Source: Oscillospiraceae bacterium (GTDB lineage Bacteria; Bacillota; Clostridia; Oscillospirales; Oscillospiraceae). Taken from it: a DNA stretch of 51,463 nt. The stretch's first letter is position 1. Every line of letters starts with the position of its first letter. The stretch spans positions 1-51,463 of the forward strand of contig JAFPWN010000055.1 in assembly GCA_017412765.1 (NCBI GenBank), written 5' to 3'. The notes under the pieces were generated by a model that searched no databases, was not told where the DNA came from, and was given only the letters and a program-made list of their open reading frames with translations. Below are positions 1 through 51,463 of the stretch, piece after piece. The position numbers and the translations under genes were made by a program.

Positions 1-153
1 ACAAAAAGAAAAAGCGTTGGATATAGGAGGCGGGGTTCTGTGAAGGGGCCGGCCAAGAGGCCCCTTCACGTCGCATAACCCGCCCGCAGGCGTCATATTT
101 TGCGCTCCGAGAGTGCAAAATATGTTCGATGCGGAGACTTTATCGACGCATTG
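1..153 (+). repeat. 160-nt structured intergenic repeat, copy A (left end cut by window edge)
   Basis: First of three near-identical copies (others at 17052-17212 and 22906-23066, both on the minus strand). Visible parts in the sense direction are an A-rich start, a perfect 11-bp stem (40-50 with 59-69) enclosed by a GGCGGG/CCCGCC pairing, a 14-bp stem (94-107 with 111-124) with a 3-nt loop, and the end GTCGACGCATTG. One position of the second stem is a G-T pair here and G-C in copy C, so pairing holds only if this strand is the RNA sense. The right end directly abuts a terminator hairpin at 154-181. No ORF is convincing. It may be a MITE-like element or a structured RNA. Confidence 0.85.
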
Positions 154-187
154 AGAGCTGAAATCTTCGGATTTCGGCTCTTTCTTT
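154..187 (+). terminator. Rho-independent terminator abutting repeat copy A
   Basis: An 11-bp stem with a TTCG tetraloop (one G-T pair) is followed by TTCTTT. It begins at the last base of the repeat, as at the other copies. The gene it originally served lies left of the window. Confidence 0.7.
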
Positions 188-17026: not shown

Positions 17027-17051
17027 GATCCGGCAGGAAACCTGCCGGATC
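17027..17051. terminator. Left copy of a duplicated terminator hairpin
   Basis: A perfect 25-bp hairpin (GATCCGGCAGG/CCTGCCGGATC with an AAA loop) preceded by an A-run, so it works as a terminator on the minus strand for pfp. An identical 25-bp hairpin is at 17213-17237, on the other side of repeat copy B. Confidence 0.9.
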
Positions 17052-17212
17052 AATGCGTCGACAAAGTCTCCGCATCGAACATATTTTGCACTCTCAGAGC
17101 GCAAAATATGACGCCTGCGGGCGGATTATGCGACGTGAAGGGGCCTCTTGGCCGGCCCCTTCACAGAACCCCGCCACCTTTATCCAACGCTGTTCTTCTT
17201 TGTCTACAGTAT
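17052..17212 (-). repeat. 160-nt structured intergenic repeat, copy B
   Basis: Complete copy, 161 bp, sense on the minus strand. It has the same two strong stems as copy A and the same GTCGACGCATTG end. It lies exactly between two identical 25-bp terminator hairpins, in the gap between convergent genes. In the long stem the sense strand has a G-T pair where copy C has G-C. Confidence 0.9.
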
Positions 17213-17243
17213 GATCCGGCAGGAAACCTGCCGGATCTGTTTT
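17213..17243 (+). terminator. Right copy of the duplicated terminator hairpin
   Basis: Identical to 17027-17051 and followed by TGTTTTTT, so it acts on the plus strand. Removing the repeat and one hairpin copy restores a normal bidirectional terminator (A-run, hairpin, T-run). Confidence 0.9.
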
Positions 17244-22882: not shown

Positions 22883-22905
22883 CAGGGGTTCAATATGAAC
22901 CCCTC
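22883..22905. terminator. Left hairpin flanking repeat copy C
   Basis: AGGGGTTC/GAACCCCT with loop AATAT. A second version of the same hairpin, one base changed in the stem, is at 23067-23090 beyond the repeat. T-rich sequence follows on the minus strand. Confidence 0.75.
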
Positions 22906-23066
22906 AATGCGTCGACAAAGTCTCCGCATCGAACATATTTTGCGCTCTAGGAGCGCAAAATATGACGCCTGCGGGCGGGTTATGCGACGTGAAGGGGCCT
23001 CTTGGCCGGCCCCTTCACAGAACCCCGCCTCCTATATCCAACGCTTTTTCTTTTTGTATACAGTCT
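22906..23066 (-). repeat. 160-nt structured intergenic repeat, copy C
   Basis: Complete copy, sense on the minus strand. The long stem is perfectly paired (14 bp) with loop CTA. The end GTCGACGCATTG abuts the left hairpin. Only a handful of substitutions separate it from copies A and B over about 150 bp. It lies between convergent genes, as copy B does. Confidence 0.9.
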
Positions 23067-23090
23067 GAGGAGTTCAATATGAACCCCTCA
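23067..23090. terminator. Right hairpin flanking repeat copy C
   Basis: A near-identical copy of the hairpin at 22883-22905 (shares AGTTCAATATGAACCCCTCA apart from one stem base), 4 bp after the stop of the minus-strand recombinase gene. Confidence 0.75.
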
Positions 23091-33424: not shown

Positions 33425-36400
33425 TTACTTCACGAAATATCTGTAGAGCATAGTTACGATCTGAGCTCGGAGGCAATCTGTATCGCCCTCGAACTTGTTA
33501 TCGCCGGTTCCGTTGCATATACCGTTCTCCTTCACCCACGCTGCTGCTTCGGCATAGTAAGCATCTGCAGGTACGTCGGCGAAGCTCTCAGCTGTCTTTG
33601 CCTTGCCGTTCATTGCGCGCGCAAGGAAGGTCGCCATCTGTGCGCGGTTGACAGTGTCGTTAACGCCGAACTTTCCGCCGCCCATACCGTTAGTCACGCC
33701 GTTCTCGGTTGCCCAAAGGACTGCCTTGTAGTAGAAGGCGTCAGCGTCGGTTACGTCGGTAAACTCAGACTTGGTTGCCGTAGGCTCCGGACAGCCAAGT
33801 GCTCTCCAGAGGAAGGTCACCGCCTGCGCTCTCGTGCAGGTTGCGCCGGGTGCGAAGTGATTCTCGTCTACGCCGTTGGTTATACCCTTCTCAACCGCCC
33901 AATCGACAGCCTTCTCATAATAGCTACCCGCCGGAACATCAACGAACTCCGGAGCTTTTTCAAACTCAGCTTCAACGGTTACCTTGCCCTCCGGCATCGT
34001 AAACTTCGCTGTCATAAGCGCGCGGCTTACTGTGACGTCATTCCCGTTCTCATCCTTAACGCTGATGCTCTTAAGTACATATCCTGCGTCAGGGGTGATT
34101 ATGACGGTTACTGTTGCTCCGGTCTTGGCAGTGTCGTTATCGACAGATACTATACCGTTTGCAGAATCCTTAACTTCAACTGTCTTTACAGATGATCCGC
34201 CGCTGTAATTAACGACGAAGTATGGCTCTGCGGTAATTTCTTTTGCAGCCGAAAGTACATTGAACAGCTCCTCGGTAAGAGTCTTGAACTTGCCGTCAAG
34301 CTTTTCTCCGTCAGCAGTAATTACCCAGCCGTTGAATGTGTATCCGCTTCTGGAATCCTTCTCAAGTGCAGAGCCTATATCAGTCATCTTATAGGGCACT
34401 GTCTTTTCGGTCTTATCGAAGAAAGTATAGCCTACGCTAACGGTCTTGCCCTCAATAAGCTCGACATCGCTGAAACGGTTCTGCTCCCAGCTTGCAACTG
34501 ATCCGTCTACCGTAACGTCAACAAACTCAACATCCTTCTCACCGTGGATAAGCTTTGCTATCGTCGGAATAAAGCTTTCGGGAAGCTGAACGCTGACCTT
34601 GATCTTACCGCTGAACTCCTTGATCTCCGGCTGATCATCTATTGTATTGCCGTCAACCTTTACGATTATCGACGGGGTGATGTCTACTACCATCTTATTG
34701 TTAGTATTATCGAAGGTCTTCGGCGCAATATCTATCGTAAGCTCAACATCAACCTTTGTATTATCGCTCGTCTTGTAATTCTCGGCGATGTCATTGAGCT
34801 CCTTAGCCGCTGCCGCAACAACGTTTTCCGCCTTTGTCTCTTCGCCGAATGTTACGCCGGAAAGCGAACTGTCCACAGGCTGAGTCGTATTGCTTCCGCC
34901 GCCGAGATCAACGTTTTCGTTCTTCGCTACTATTTCGCTCTTATCAATACTGTAGGTCTTAACTACTGTGCTGCTGTTCTTGAGCTTAATTGTGACGGTA
35001 TCTCCAGCTACAGTCTTGTCAAACGAGCTGTCAACGGTAACGTCAACGTTTATAGCATTTTCAGCAGCTTTCACGCCGTAAATCTTAATAACGTCGCCCT
35101 CAAGCTGTCCGGCGACCTTATCGTCTGCTCCGGCAGTGGCAATAATGGCGCTGATGAACTCTTTTACCGCCTTGACGGAAACCGTCTTCTCGGCAGCGTT
35201 ATAGTTGGCTGTTTCGGCTACCTTGATTGTAAGCGTAGTTACGCCCTCATCAACGCTCTTAACGGTAAGAACTTTGCCATTGAGCGACGCGGAGGCGATT
35301 CCGCTCTCAAATTCATAGCTGACAACAGCGCTCTTATCCGCGTCGTTTGCGATCGTCACTACAATGTCAGCGCTGTTTGCGCCCGGATAAAGAAGTACAC
35401 TTTCCTTGTCGATTGCAAGATCACGGTCAGCCTTCGTGATTTTCGCTTTTACACCCGCGGGCTGAGCCGAAAGAACGTAGTTAGCCTTATCTGTTCCATC
35501 AAGGGCAAAGCCTGTGAATGCAACTTCTTTCTCCTCGCCTGCGTTTGCATCGGCGAAGCTTGCAGTTCCTACATTGACGGTCACATCGTCCTCGCCGATC
35601 TTGCCGTCAACAGTGTGAGTTCCCGTGATTACAGCAGCTACAGTGCCGTCGTAGACCTTATCTGCCGCGGTAACTCCGGTAATGGTAACAGCCTTCGGAG
35701 TAATGTCTGCCGTAACGCTTGCAGGCTGAGCCTTGAGGCTGTAGTAATCAGAATCTGCGCCGGTGAGTGAGAATCCCTTGAAGGTAACGGTCTTGCCGTT
35801 TGCAGCGTTCTTATCCGCAAACGCCGCAGTACCCATAACTACGGAAACGTTGTCAGAGCCGACCTTGCCGTCTACAGCAGCGGTTCCGGTAATTGTGGCG
35901 GTAGTATTGCCGTCATAGACCTTATTTGCGGCAGCAAGACCTGTAATTGTAACGTCCTTCTTGTTGACGGTAAGGGTTACGGAAGCCTCGCCGATCGTAT
36001 TATTGGACTCGAACTTAGCGGTGATGGTTGCGCTTCCCTGTCCTTTGATAGTGACCACGCCGTCTGCTACCGTAGCAACAGCGGTGTTATTGCTTGTCCA
36101 GTTCCAAGTGCGATTGCTGTCTCCCTTATGCTCTGCGTCTGCCGTAAGAGTGAAGCTTGCATCGCCGTAGGTCTTAGTGATGGAGGCCTCTCCGTCGATC
36201 GTGACGTTGGCGTCAGTCTTGTCAACGACAGTAACGGTGATCGCGCCGTCGCCGGTGTATGCGTTGTACTCGTTGGCTCCGTCATTATTGACATTCTTTG
36301 CGGTGATGTTTACGGTAATAACAACGTTGCCGGTATTCGCAGTGGATGTGAGTGTCGAGCCTTCGAGAGTCGCGGCGGTGCCGGATTTTATCTCAAAGCT

Positions 36401-39400
36401 CACGGTGCCCTGCGCATCCTTAACAAGAGAGTTGAGGTCGAGCTTATTGCCGCCCTTGGCAAGACTCGCGGTCGCGGTAATTGTCGGGGTCTGGTTTGCA
36501 GCTCCAATCGTTGCCGTTACGCTTGCGGGAACGGTGTTATTGTGGTTCTTATCTCCTGCTACCTTGTAATAAACAGTATAGCTTCCGGCATAAGTTCCGG
36601 TCGGGATATTCTTGCTGTATGTTCCGGTCCCAGTGAGAGAGTAAACCATCTCGCCGCCGGCAGCCGTTCCGGCGCTGACGAGAGCCTGTGCATTTCCGGT
36701 GTAGGCAAGATTCTGGGCAGCCGAAGGAGCGGTGTTTACAGAAGAAGCTGCCTTGTTTATGGTGAAGCTCGTTGTTTTTGCGCTCGGTAGAGTGTAGTTT
36801 CCTGCCTTAGCTCCGCTAAGAGCGTTTGCAGTTGCGGTGTATTCGGTTCCCGCGTCGGTCTGACCGCCGGTTACGGTTACGGTAACTGCATCGTTGTTCA
36901 CAAGTCCCGTCGCCGTTGCGGTCGGAGCCTTGCTTGTTCCGTCATATGTGAAGGTGGATTCGCCCCAGGTAAGTCCTACTTCCTTCGCAGTTACGGTGAG
37001 TGCGCCCGCTGCGTAGGTTATTTCGTAATTTGCTGCGTTAAGTCCGTTCGGTGTGATCTCATATGTTCCGACGTTGCCGTACCGCTCATAGTCAAATGTA
37101 TAGCCGACAGTGCCGGTTACAACGGTCGCGGCATCTCCCTTTACAAAGCCGGAGTAAGTCACGCCGTTACCGGCGGGCGCGTCGCCGTATACGATGCTGT
37201 TCGCGTTTGCCGTTACGGTAAGAGCTGCCTTGTTTACAGTGAGATCGAAGGCAGCGGTGCCGATGGTGGTGTTGGACTCATAGGTCGCGGTGATGGTTGT
37301 GCTGCCCGCACCTTCTATGTTAACATTGCCGTTATTGTCAACGGTTGCAACATTATTGTCGCCGGTTGTCCAAGTCCACGTTCCGGTGCCGGTGCCCGCG
37401 TTTCCGACATTTGCGCTCAGCTTAAACGAATCTTCGCCGTAGGTCTTGGTAACAGCTGCTTCGCCGGATACGGTTACGTTCGCATTATCCTTTTCAACGA
37501 CAGTAACTGTGATTGCGCCGTCGCCGGTGTATGCGTTGTACTCGTTGGCTCCGTCATTATTGACATTCTTTGCGGTGACGTTAACGGTTATTACTACGTC
37601 GCCAGTATTCGCGGAAGATGTAAGCGTCGATCCATCGAGAGTTGCAGCTGTGCCGTTCTTTATCTCGAAGCTGACTGTACCCTCTGCGTTAGTAACGAAA
37701 GTGCTGAGATCAAGGGTGTTGCCGCCCTTGGCAAGGCTTGCCGCCGCAGTGATGGTCGGGTCCTGATCCGCCGCGGTGATGTCCGCAGTTGTGTTTGCGG
37801 GCTGAGCGGTAAGATTGTAGTTTCCTGCCTTCGAACCGGTAAGTGCATAGCCGGTAAAGGTCACGGTCTTGCCGGTTCCGGCATAAGCGTCAGCAAACGC
37901 GGCAGTGCCGGCACTAACTGTAACGTCATCGCCCTCAATCATTCCGTCGATTGCGGCAGTACCGTTGGCAGTCGCGGCAGTATTTCCGTCATAGGTCTTG
38001 TTCTCTGCGGAAAGTCCGGTGATCGTAACGTCCTTCGGCGCGATCGTTACAGTGCCGATAGTCATTTTATTGGCGGTGGCATTGAAGTTAGCGCCGCCGT
38101 TGGGTGAATTGAATGTTATGGTGTAAGTTCCTGCGTTGGCGGGTACGGCAGCTTCCTGAACGTCGTTTACAAACACTGAAAGCTGAAGCCCGTCGCTTGC
38201 GTAGGGCGCTTTGAGGGTAGGCAATGTAATGGGAACCGTATTTCCGTCGTAGGTCTTGCCCTCCGGAGCGGTAATGTCGAACACGTCAGCCGTCAGATCC
38301 GCCTTGGAGATATCTACGGTAAGTGTCGGCTTAGCAACTGTGTAGTTAGCTGCGTCAGCACCGGAGAGAGTAATGTCTGCGTAGGTGACAACCTTGCCGG
38401 TCGCGGCATTTGCATCAGCAACAGTGCCGCTTGTCGGGAAGTTTGCGGTTACTGTGTCGCCCTCAGCAACTTCGGAGAGGGCACCTCCGGTGAGGTCAAC
38501 AGCAACAGTGCCATTATATGCGCGGTTTGTCGCGGTAAGTCCCGTGACTGTGAGCTCTTTTTTACCAACGGAAAGACCGTTAAGGGCTGCGCTCTTGGTG
38601 CCGAAGGTTACGGTCGCGGAGGTGTCGCCATTTCTGAGATAGCTGCCGTTTGCATAGGCTATGTTATATCCGGTAACGGCAGAACTTGTGTTATCATCGT
38701 AGGAGGCGGTTACGACCATACCGGTTGTGTCAAGCGTTTCGCCGTGGACGTACATTGTCTTAGCTGGCTTGGTCGTGACTTCGATGCCGGTAAGCACTTT
38801 ATCTTCGGTTTTTTCAAAGGTCTTGGTAAGAGTTACTTGAGTATCACTGTCGCGCGTCACAGTCCAGCCCTCGGGAGCAGTAACCGTTGCGGCAAATACA
38901 TGGCCGGTGGTCGCGGTAAGGGTTACCGTGGCTGTATAAGCTGTGCCGCCGGCAAAAGTCGCGGGATTACCTTCCCACTCAATTGCACCGGTAAAATCGT
39001 CAGTTGCCTCGATAGAAGACTGTGGCGTACCGTTCTTAGCAGGTGCGGTAACCGAGAAGCCAACAGAAGATACCGTTTTAGGTGTTATGCTCCAGGTGAT
39101 TGACTTGTCTTCCGAGTTTCCGTCAACCCATTTCGTCTCAGCTTTATCCTTAAGTGTAGCTGTTACCGAATGTGATCCGACATCAGTAGCGGAGGTTGTG
39201 CCGGAAAGCATGTATTTATCCTTATCCGCGCCGTTATCTGTTACAGTTATTGCAGAGCCGGTGTACTCAGCGTCCTGAAGATCCGGGACAGCAACCGGAT
39301 TCTTTTCCACAATAAGATTGGAAGTTGACGCCGTTTTACCTTCGTATGTAACGGTTATGCCCTTTCCGTTGTTTTCTGCAACAGTAAGCACAGTGCCGTT

Positions 39401-51280: not shown

Positions 51281-51305
51281 AAAAAGAAAAACCGCCGAAG
51301 CGGTT
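51281..51305 (-). terminator. Terminator hairpin abutting a repeat-like end
   Basis: AACCGC/GCGGTT with a CGAA loop (51290-51305); on the minus strand it is followed by TTTTTCTTTTTG. It directly joins the AATGCGTCGAC end at 51307. Confidence 0.75.
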
Positions 51306-51400
51306 CAATGCGTCGACAAAGTTGTTACGGCTCGGCGAGATTGACCCCGTAGGGCTCAGCGAGAATCGCCACACCGAGCTCAAATAAGGAAAAAGCCATT
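51306..51400 (-). repeat. Second structured element sharing only the terminal 16 bp with copies A-C
   Basis: CAATGCGTCGACAAAG (51306-51321) is identical to the end of copies B and C and again abuts a terminator hairpin. The interior differs: it has its own nested stems (GCTCGG/CCGAGC outer, GGCGA..ATT/AATCGCC and ACCCC/GGG inner). The far boundary is not defined in the window. Confidence 0.5.
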
Positions 51401-51450
51401 TTCAAATGCGTAATAATCCGTTACACTGGTGTTGGGCAACAACTCAGCGG

Positions 51451-51463
51451 AAGGAGGATTATG
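51451..51463 (+). other. Possible start of a gene running out of the window
   Basis: AAGGAGG followed after 3 bp by ATG as the last three bases. Only the start codon is visible; the spacing is a little short. Confidence 0.4.

Follow-up and report, generated by a model that had tools for sequence, protein, structure and literature searches.

A 160-base repeat in the genome of an Oscillospiraceae bacterium is very probably a gene-less mini-transposon (MITE) of IS1182 type, which inserts at the foot of a terminator hairpin in such a way that the hairpin is copied to both of its flanks. We characterized the repeat in a stretch of 51,463 nucleotides (positions 1 to 51,463 of contig JAFPWN010000055.1; hereafter the window), for which a preliminary description was at hand, and compared its copies, flanks and ends with those found in other genomes.

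The element and its copies

The element measures ~162 bp, with CAATGCGTCGACAAAG at its left end and CAGACTGTAGACAAA at its right end, and was standardised on all copies to run from C (CAATGCGTCGACAAAG) to G (CTACAGTCTG). Its termini are imperfect inverted repeats, CAATGCGTCGACAAAG and CAGACTGTAGACAAAG being identical at 11 of 16 positions (counted by eye), and it folds far better than shuffled sequences on both strands (z of -6.16 and -6.09). It is short, carries no transposase and has, besides these terminal inverted repeats, the target-site duplications and empty sites described below, all of which mark it as a MITE.

Two complete copies, delimited by their sequence and by flank alignment, lie on the plus strand of the window. 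Copy B (C-AATGCG...CAGTAT-G; 17051..17213) is enclosed by a duplicated 23-bp terminator hairpin, whose left copy (17028..17050) has its T tail on the minus strand and whose right copy (17214..17236) has it on the plus strand. Copy C (22905..23067) is enclosed by a 21-bp hairpin (22884..22904 and 23068..23088, the latter with one mismatch). The preliminary description had already placed both copies between hairpins, and these are indeed present, with the exact ends slightly shifted to the positions given here. It had also held that the left hairpin keeps an A-run and the right one a T-run, which is the case at copy B, where the left hairpin resembles a terminator on the minus strand alone and the right one on the plus strand alone; at copy C the same terminator scan reports none.

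A further copy, A, occupies 1..153 of the minus strand and is cut by the contig end. The hairpin at its left end (154..181) has, by eye, a near-identical counterpart that follows the element's right end at the start of another contig (C68, L030). At the opposite end of the window (51306..51463, plus strand), the left end of the MITE (CAATGCGTCGACAAAG, 16 of 16 positions identical) is directly preceded by a hairpin (51290..51305) and followed by a different interior and then GGAAGGAGGATTATG, with an RBS-like GGAAGGAGG and an ATG at the contig end. The window also holds two 300-nt direct repeats (36162-36461 and 37434-37733; 80% identical), which are not copies of the MITE.

The genome to which the window belongs (G000; 2.28 Mb in 74 contigs) contains many copies of the MITE, those scored (40 per search, of 77 and 81 candidates) being 91-100% identical to the query. 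No copy was found in the 39 other genomes of the first set of relatives searched. When 34 congeneric genomes were scanned with the 16-base left end, allowing at most one mismatch, it was present in three, namely G000 (54 matches), G040 (29) and G041 (28), in each of which the reversed control pattern gave 0 matches; the MITE is thus carried by two of the 33 other congeneric genomes. A first scan of genome contigs with a 22-base pattern returned 0 matches, and seven matches of the left-end pattern in viral contigs were rejected, as none is preceded by a hairpin and the sequence is unrelated by eye. In G000, several contigs are broken at an element end in matching hairpins, as judged by eye (C15/C22, L049/L007; C32/C22, L048/L032; C46/C68, the window and L030), and the duplicated hairpins can therefore guide assembly.

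Duplication of the target hairpin

Across the three genomes we gathered 114 copies or copy-ends with distinct flanks (58 from G000, 29 from G040 and 27 from G041; a copy split between two contigs is counted twice among the ends), 93 of them with both flanks. The left and right flanks proved duplicated, with a score of at least 12, in 80 of these 93 copies, against 5 of 368 re-paired, shuffled flanks. This upheld the central proposal of the preliminary description, that the whole hairpin constitutes the target-site duplication, together with its expectation that most copies lie between matching hairpins. The duplications are palindromic hairpins of 20-34 bp whose sequence differs from locus to locus.

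Among 79 distinct duplications, the outermost six inside positions pair in 76-91%, whereas the three positions just outside pair in 25-37% and positions 4-6 outside in 33, 33 and 49%. The ends of the best stem coincide with both ends of the duplication in 20 of the 79 and lie no more than 1 nt away from them on both sides in 56; the first base of the duplication is A in 63 and the last is T in 73. That the stem ends at or near the ends of the duplication suggests that the cut is made at or beside the stem foot, and that it is the hairpin which sets the length of the duplication.

We next consider the T tails that accompany these hairpins. Of the 80 duplicating copies, 64 have a plus-strand T tail at the right hairpin and 61 a minus-strand T tail at the left one, with both present in 47 and at least one in 78; the element-facing sides gave 0 and 1, and positions 25 nt further out gave 21 and 17. 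With the T tails located on the outer sides, one complete terminator tends to remain for each strand after insertion. Neighbouring genes at 89 copies were called convergent in 31, tandem in 23 and 23, and divergent in 12, using a crude and noisy ORF caller. The equal tandem counts indicate no strong orientation bias, as might be expected if a symmetric structure were recognised at the level of DNA.

The remaining 13 of the 93 copies score below 12. Four of them have repeats of 6-9 bp and no clear hairpin (L035, L012, L067 and L005), five have a left hairpin but no right one (L115, L081, L011, L133 and L137), one has two different hairpins (L084), one has diverged hairpins (L073), and two are unclear (L069 and one copy in L039). 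A hairpin target is thus preferred rather than required. The earlier idea that hairpins are recognised by their shape is supported, at the level of sequence, by duplications whose ends fall close to the foot of the stem in hairpins unrelated to one another, but a minority of copies occupy sites that are not hairpins. At L115 and L081, the right flank repeats just some of the bases that precede the left hairpin, which would fit a right hairpin that was lost or never copied (by eye).

As for the loops, the two copies of the hairpin are in direct orientation in 73 of the 80 duplications, inverted in five (L016, L039, L077, L093 and L112) and ambiguous in two. The inverted loops suggest either flipping of the hairpin or copying from the other arm.

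Relationship to the IS1182 family

A transposase with the same ends, which the preliminary description had proposed to seek, does exist: it belongs to the IS1182 family and is found in other genomes and, as C-terminal fragments, in G000 itself. The clearest case is a 1600-bp element from Anaerostipes (L245), both ends of which have the right-end form of the MITE (CAGACTGTAGACAAAG), and whose transposase scores 457 bits with the family model NF033551 (cut-off 270) and contains the domains DUF772, DDE_Tnp_1_6 and DDE_Tnp_1. The family models were run on this element alone, and 11 further loci have a similar frame by eye.

In G000, contigs C42 and C49 both start with C-terminal matches to the IS1182 model (35 positions, 25 bits and E 4.3e-5 each, below the full-length cut-off), which are followed by the right end of the MITE (TTTGTCTACAGTCTG in C49, with one base different in C42) and then by a new hairpin. 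A third weak IS1182 match (C12:7589-7720) has a stop inside it. A search of G000 for PF05598 gave no match, consistent with the N-terminal part being missing. No complete autonomous element is assembled in this genome; its middle is missing, and only their ends connect the left fragment with the right ones. Judging from these ends, the left end at 51306 is probably the start of an autonomous IS1182 element whose gene lies off the contig, and the simplest reading would be a multi-copy autonomous IS1182 element whose body was not assembled. The 159-bp IS-like left end was itself compared with 394 genomes of the order, where only its own copy and three short matches were found (L149, L150 and L151), the first two inside ordinary reading frames and the third a short match, and with plasmids and phages, where no match was found.

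Within the genus, the IS1182 model exceeds its cut-off in eight of the 34 genomes and gives some match in 20. Eleven loci were taken from this set, of which eight passed an ORF filter (L391-L393 were left out), and seven of these eight elements lie between exact palindromic repeats of 22-31 bp, L383 being the one without a hairpin repeat. Their ends, of CAGTCTGTCGACAAAC or CAGTCTGTCAAAAAAC type, are related but not identical to those of the MITE. A palindromic or hairpin target, as reported for some IS1182 members, is thus seen for both the MITE and the IS1182 elements of the genus. From the ends and the fragments we infer that the MITE is a non-autonomous derivative within the IS1182 family, and an IS1182-family transposase is the likely autonomous mobiliser.

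Empty and shared sites, and alternative explanations

We then compared the insertion sites between genomes. Contig C8 of G040 is orthologous to the region of copies B and C, and there both elements are absent and a single hairpin is present at each site. Altogether, four empty orthologous sites were found among the compared loci, each with one copy of the target by eye: those of B, C and L086, which are hairpins, and that of L012, a diverged 7-bp site. Loci with one hairpin and no element, which the preliminary description had proposed to look for, do exist: each of the four empty sites has a single copy of the target, and in three of them it is a hairpin. All other flank-pair matches in this comparison were filled sites.

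Among 16 pairs of orthologous filled sites, five (L147/L142, L088/L113, L088/L072, L113/L072 and L114/L075) join an element to its best match in the other genome; in the rest the second element ranks lower, which could reflect either repeated insertion or gene conversion. At some shared sites the hairpins agree within a genome and differ between genomes, and look converted or re-targeted. At L074 (G040) and L126 (G041), the element is found at one terminator in opposite orientations (flanks compared by eye), reflecting either independent insertions or an inversion between the palindromic flanks.

Such remodelling of palindromes, also evident in the inverted loops, bears on an alternative that we regard as improbable, namely that a transposase with a fixed, short stagger merely favours terminators, and that the long repeat arises later by gene conversion or by replication slippage over the palindrome. 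The few copies with 6-9 bp duplications speak for it, as does an IS1182 element of Paracoccus for which a table lists a 4-bp duplication (PMC3281130), indicating that the whole family need not behave alike. However, the 56 of 79 duplications delimited within 1 nt by the stem foot at both ends are at odds with this explanation, and so are the exact duplications around the seven IS1182 elements of the genus, given that slippage is not expected to place a duplication exactly at the element ends.

Considerably less probable is that no transposition took place and that the repeat is an old spacer, lying between two genes' own terminators or next to a hairpin that had been tandemly duplicated beforehand. 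The 31 of 89 copies called convergent, by the same noisy ORF caller, would suit such spacers, yet the four empty sites have a single copy, the two hairpins match within a locus and differ between loci, and transposase-bearing elements show the same duplication. Simple segmental duplication, which the preliminary description had excluded, was likewise rejected, as hairpin copies that match within a locus differ between loci and the empty sites have a single copy.

Class C group II introns also use terminator hairpins as landing sites, and a retroelement of this kind could in principle be invoked. They share these targets with the MITE, but differ from it in their RNA-based mobility and in their ends, and are not known to leave a hairpin duplication. 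With terminal inverted repeats, a target duplication, the same ends on transposase-bearing elements and a window free of Rfam intron matches at gathering scores, we rejected such an intron and consider a retroelement exceedingly improbable.

The same low standing is given to hairpin replacement of the kind described for IS1272, in which the element itself would bring the second hairpin: IS1272 belongs to the same family and targets hairpins (PMC4923244, PMC5678879, as far as the excerpts go), and some copies of the MITE have a hairpin on one side only, but each locus has flanking hairpins of its own, and at the three hairpin sites with an empty counterpart these match the hairpin of that counterpart. 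The hairpins are hence the target and not part of the element, and nothing was deleted there; rather than being lost without duplication, the target hairpin is kept and duplicated.

Related elements in Firmicutes

Insertion with duplication of the target hairpin is not confined to this genus. In a collection of 84,980 species, TCAGACTGTAGACAAAG occurs at no fewer than 118 loci; of the 80 titles listed, 79 name Firmicutes and the other Acholeplasmataceae. Among 125 usable matches to these ends in other genomes, 106 have a stem that stops at the element end, against 5 of 375 controls. Of 128 matches, 60 have a candidate partner end and 29 of these (26 loci) show a hairpin-sized duplication with a score of at least 12, taken as the best of several candidate ends, without a shuffle control and with some sizes uncertain (L233: 151 or 162). 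The elements so delimited span about 150 to 1847 bp. Elements of this kind, duplicating their target hairpin, are widespread in Firmicutes.

Among 15 long candidates, with the second end 0.8-3.2 kb away, 12 have a transposase-like frame by eye (in L248, in two broken frames) and three do not (L237, L311 and L342). L248 and L282 are transposase-bearing elements with ends of the family and different hairpins at the two ends, and are perhaps recombinants.

Related ends also occur on other MITEs in other families of the order, where a hairpin duplication was seen by eye at five of ten sites in G367, at two sites in G186, at the G411 site and at one of four sites in G250; at the remaining sites just one end is present, the contig is cut or the hairpins differ. 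No transposase was recognised in the ORF lists of L053, where another hairpin comes after a left end, or of L191 and L230, both with family-type ends. In four related MITEs of other families (L156, L166, L167 and L192), the left end is itself a near-perfect hairpin, CAGTCTGTAGAC-AAA-GTCTACAGACTG and variants of it (by eye), and the left end of the window's MITE seems to be a decayed form of this hairpin.

Two elements were found to carry other genes. In Sporomusa malonica (NZ_FWXI01000013.1, 3669-5515; L311), an 1847-bp element that has family ends and lies in an exact 23-bp hairpin duplication carries two genes matching those of the Thoeris defence system, ThsA (macro; PADLOC E 1.6e-132) and ThsB (TIR-like; 1.6e-114). 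Its ORF list shows no transposase, and it is, judged by its gene content, a transposase-less transposon with defence cargo. L342 (minus strand from 2348; 1082 bp) has family ends, a 19-bp hairpin duplication and a 259-residue frame resembling an alpha/beta hydrolase (by eye).

Discussion

We propose that a DDE transposase would join both 3' ends of the element to the 5' feet of the hairpin, with a stagger that is set by the hairpin and not by a fixed number of bases, and that gap repair would then copy the whole stem-loop to both sides of the element. Where the minus-strand T tail stays with the left hairpin and the plus-strand one with the right, as tends to be the case, both convergent transcripts could still reach a complete terminator, merely gaining a structured 3' extension. 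Retaining a terminator for each strand would make insertions nearly neutral, which could explain the high copy number.

More broadly, these elements probably represent a Firmicutes-wide IS1182-type group, ranging from MITEs of ~150 bp to elements with defence cargo, in which the cut is measured by structure: the transposase would read the foot of a hairpin or cruciform, the duplication would correspond to one whole terminator, and insertion could leave a complete terminator on each strand. The duplication left by a transposase normally varies little in length. Here, its length is apparently set by DNA structure, so that structure-guided DNA cutting becomes testable in a simple and abundant system. 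The elements also suggest how a mobile element may stay harmless, by duplicating the terminator that it enters, and reach tens of copies per genome. On the practical side, paired hairpins can help to connect contigs that break off at the repeat, and elements of this kind, including those that bear cargo, can be located across Firmicutes by the end motif.

Whereas the preliminary description took the repeat for a non-coding element of no known kind, it is, judging by its ends, very probably a MITE of the IS1182 family, full-length members of which have already been reported in terminator hairpins (PMC3098183, PMC4923244). As far as the excerpts of the literature used here extend, what was known before is the insertion of IS1182 elements in terminator hairpins and the replacement of hairpins by IS1272, whole-hairpin duplication being only a hypothetical pathway. 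We found neither a described case of a whole hairpin being duplicated nor one of an IS1182 MITE residing in terminators in the literature searched, which included excerpts of PMC5678879, PMC10969869, PMC9208149, PMC4923244, PMC12056078, PMC3281130 and PMC3098183. In the portion of a 2025 study used here, IS1182-related transposases are described as acting with or without target duplication and as possibly recognising sequence or DNA structure (PMC12056078).

Bacterial MITEs as portrayed in the excerpted part of a review (PMC10969869) resemble the present element in their small size, terminal inverted repeats, many intergenic copies and structured transcript, but no hairpin-sized duplication or terminator targeting is described for them in that part. 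ISCbo5/ISbma2 of Clostridia likewise belongs to the IS1182 family: a 2011 genome paper (PMC3098183) locates ISCbo5 in hairpins where genes end, and describes every insertion site except one as a hairpin of this kind that most likely acts as a transcription stop. Unlike the MITE, it is a full IS, and the excerpted text does not state a whole-hairpin duplication, a cut at the stem foot or a MITE.

IS1272/TnSha1 of Staphylococcus (PMC4923244, PMC5678879, in excerpt) shares with the MITE the structure-dependent targeting of hairpins without a sequence consensus, terminators among its targets, and 16-bp ends. Yet Furi et al. 2016 (PMC4923244), in the text at hand, report hairpin targeting with deletion and no duplication, and Wan et al. 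2017 (PMC5678879) draw whole-hairpin duplication as a possibility (Fig. 13, pathway b) beside the replacement pathway proposed for IS1272. Thus, while IS1272 deletes or replaces its hairpin, the MITE keeps and duplicates it, matching only the hypothetical pathway b, and would realise a route so far just drawn for IS1272.
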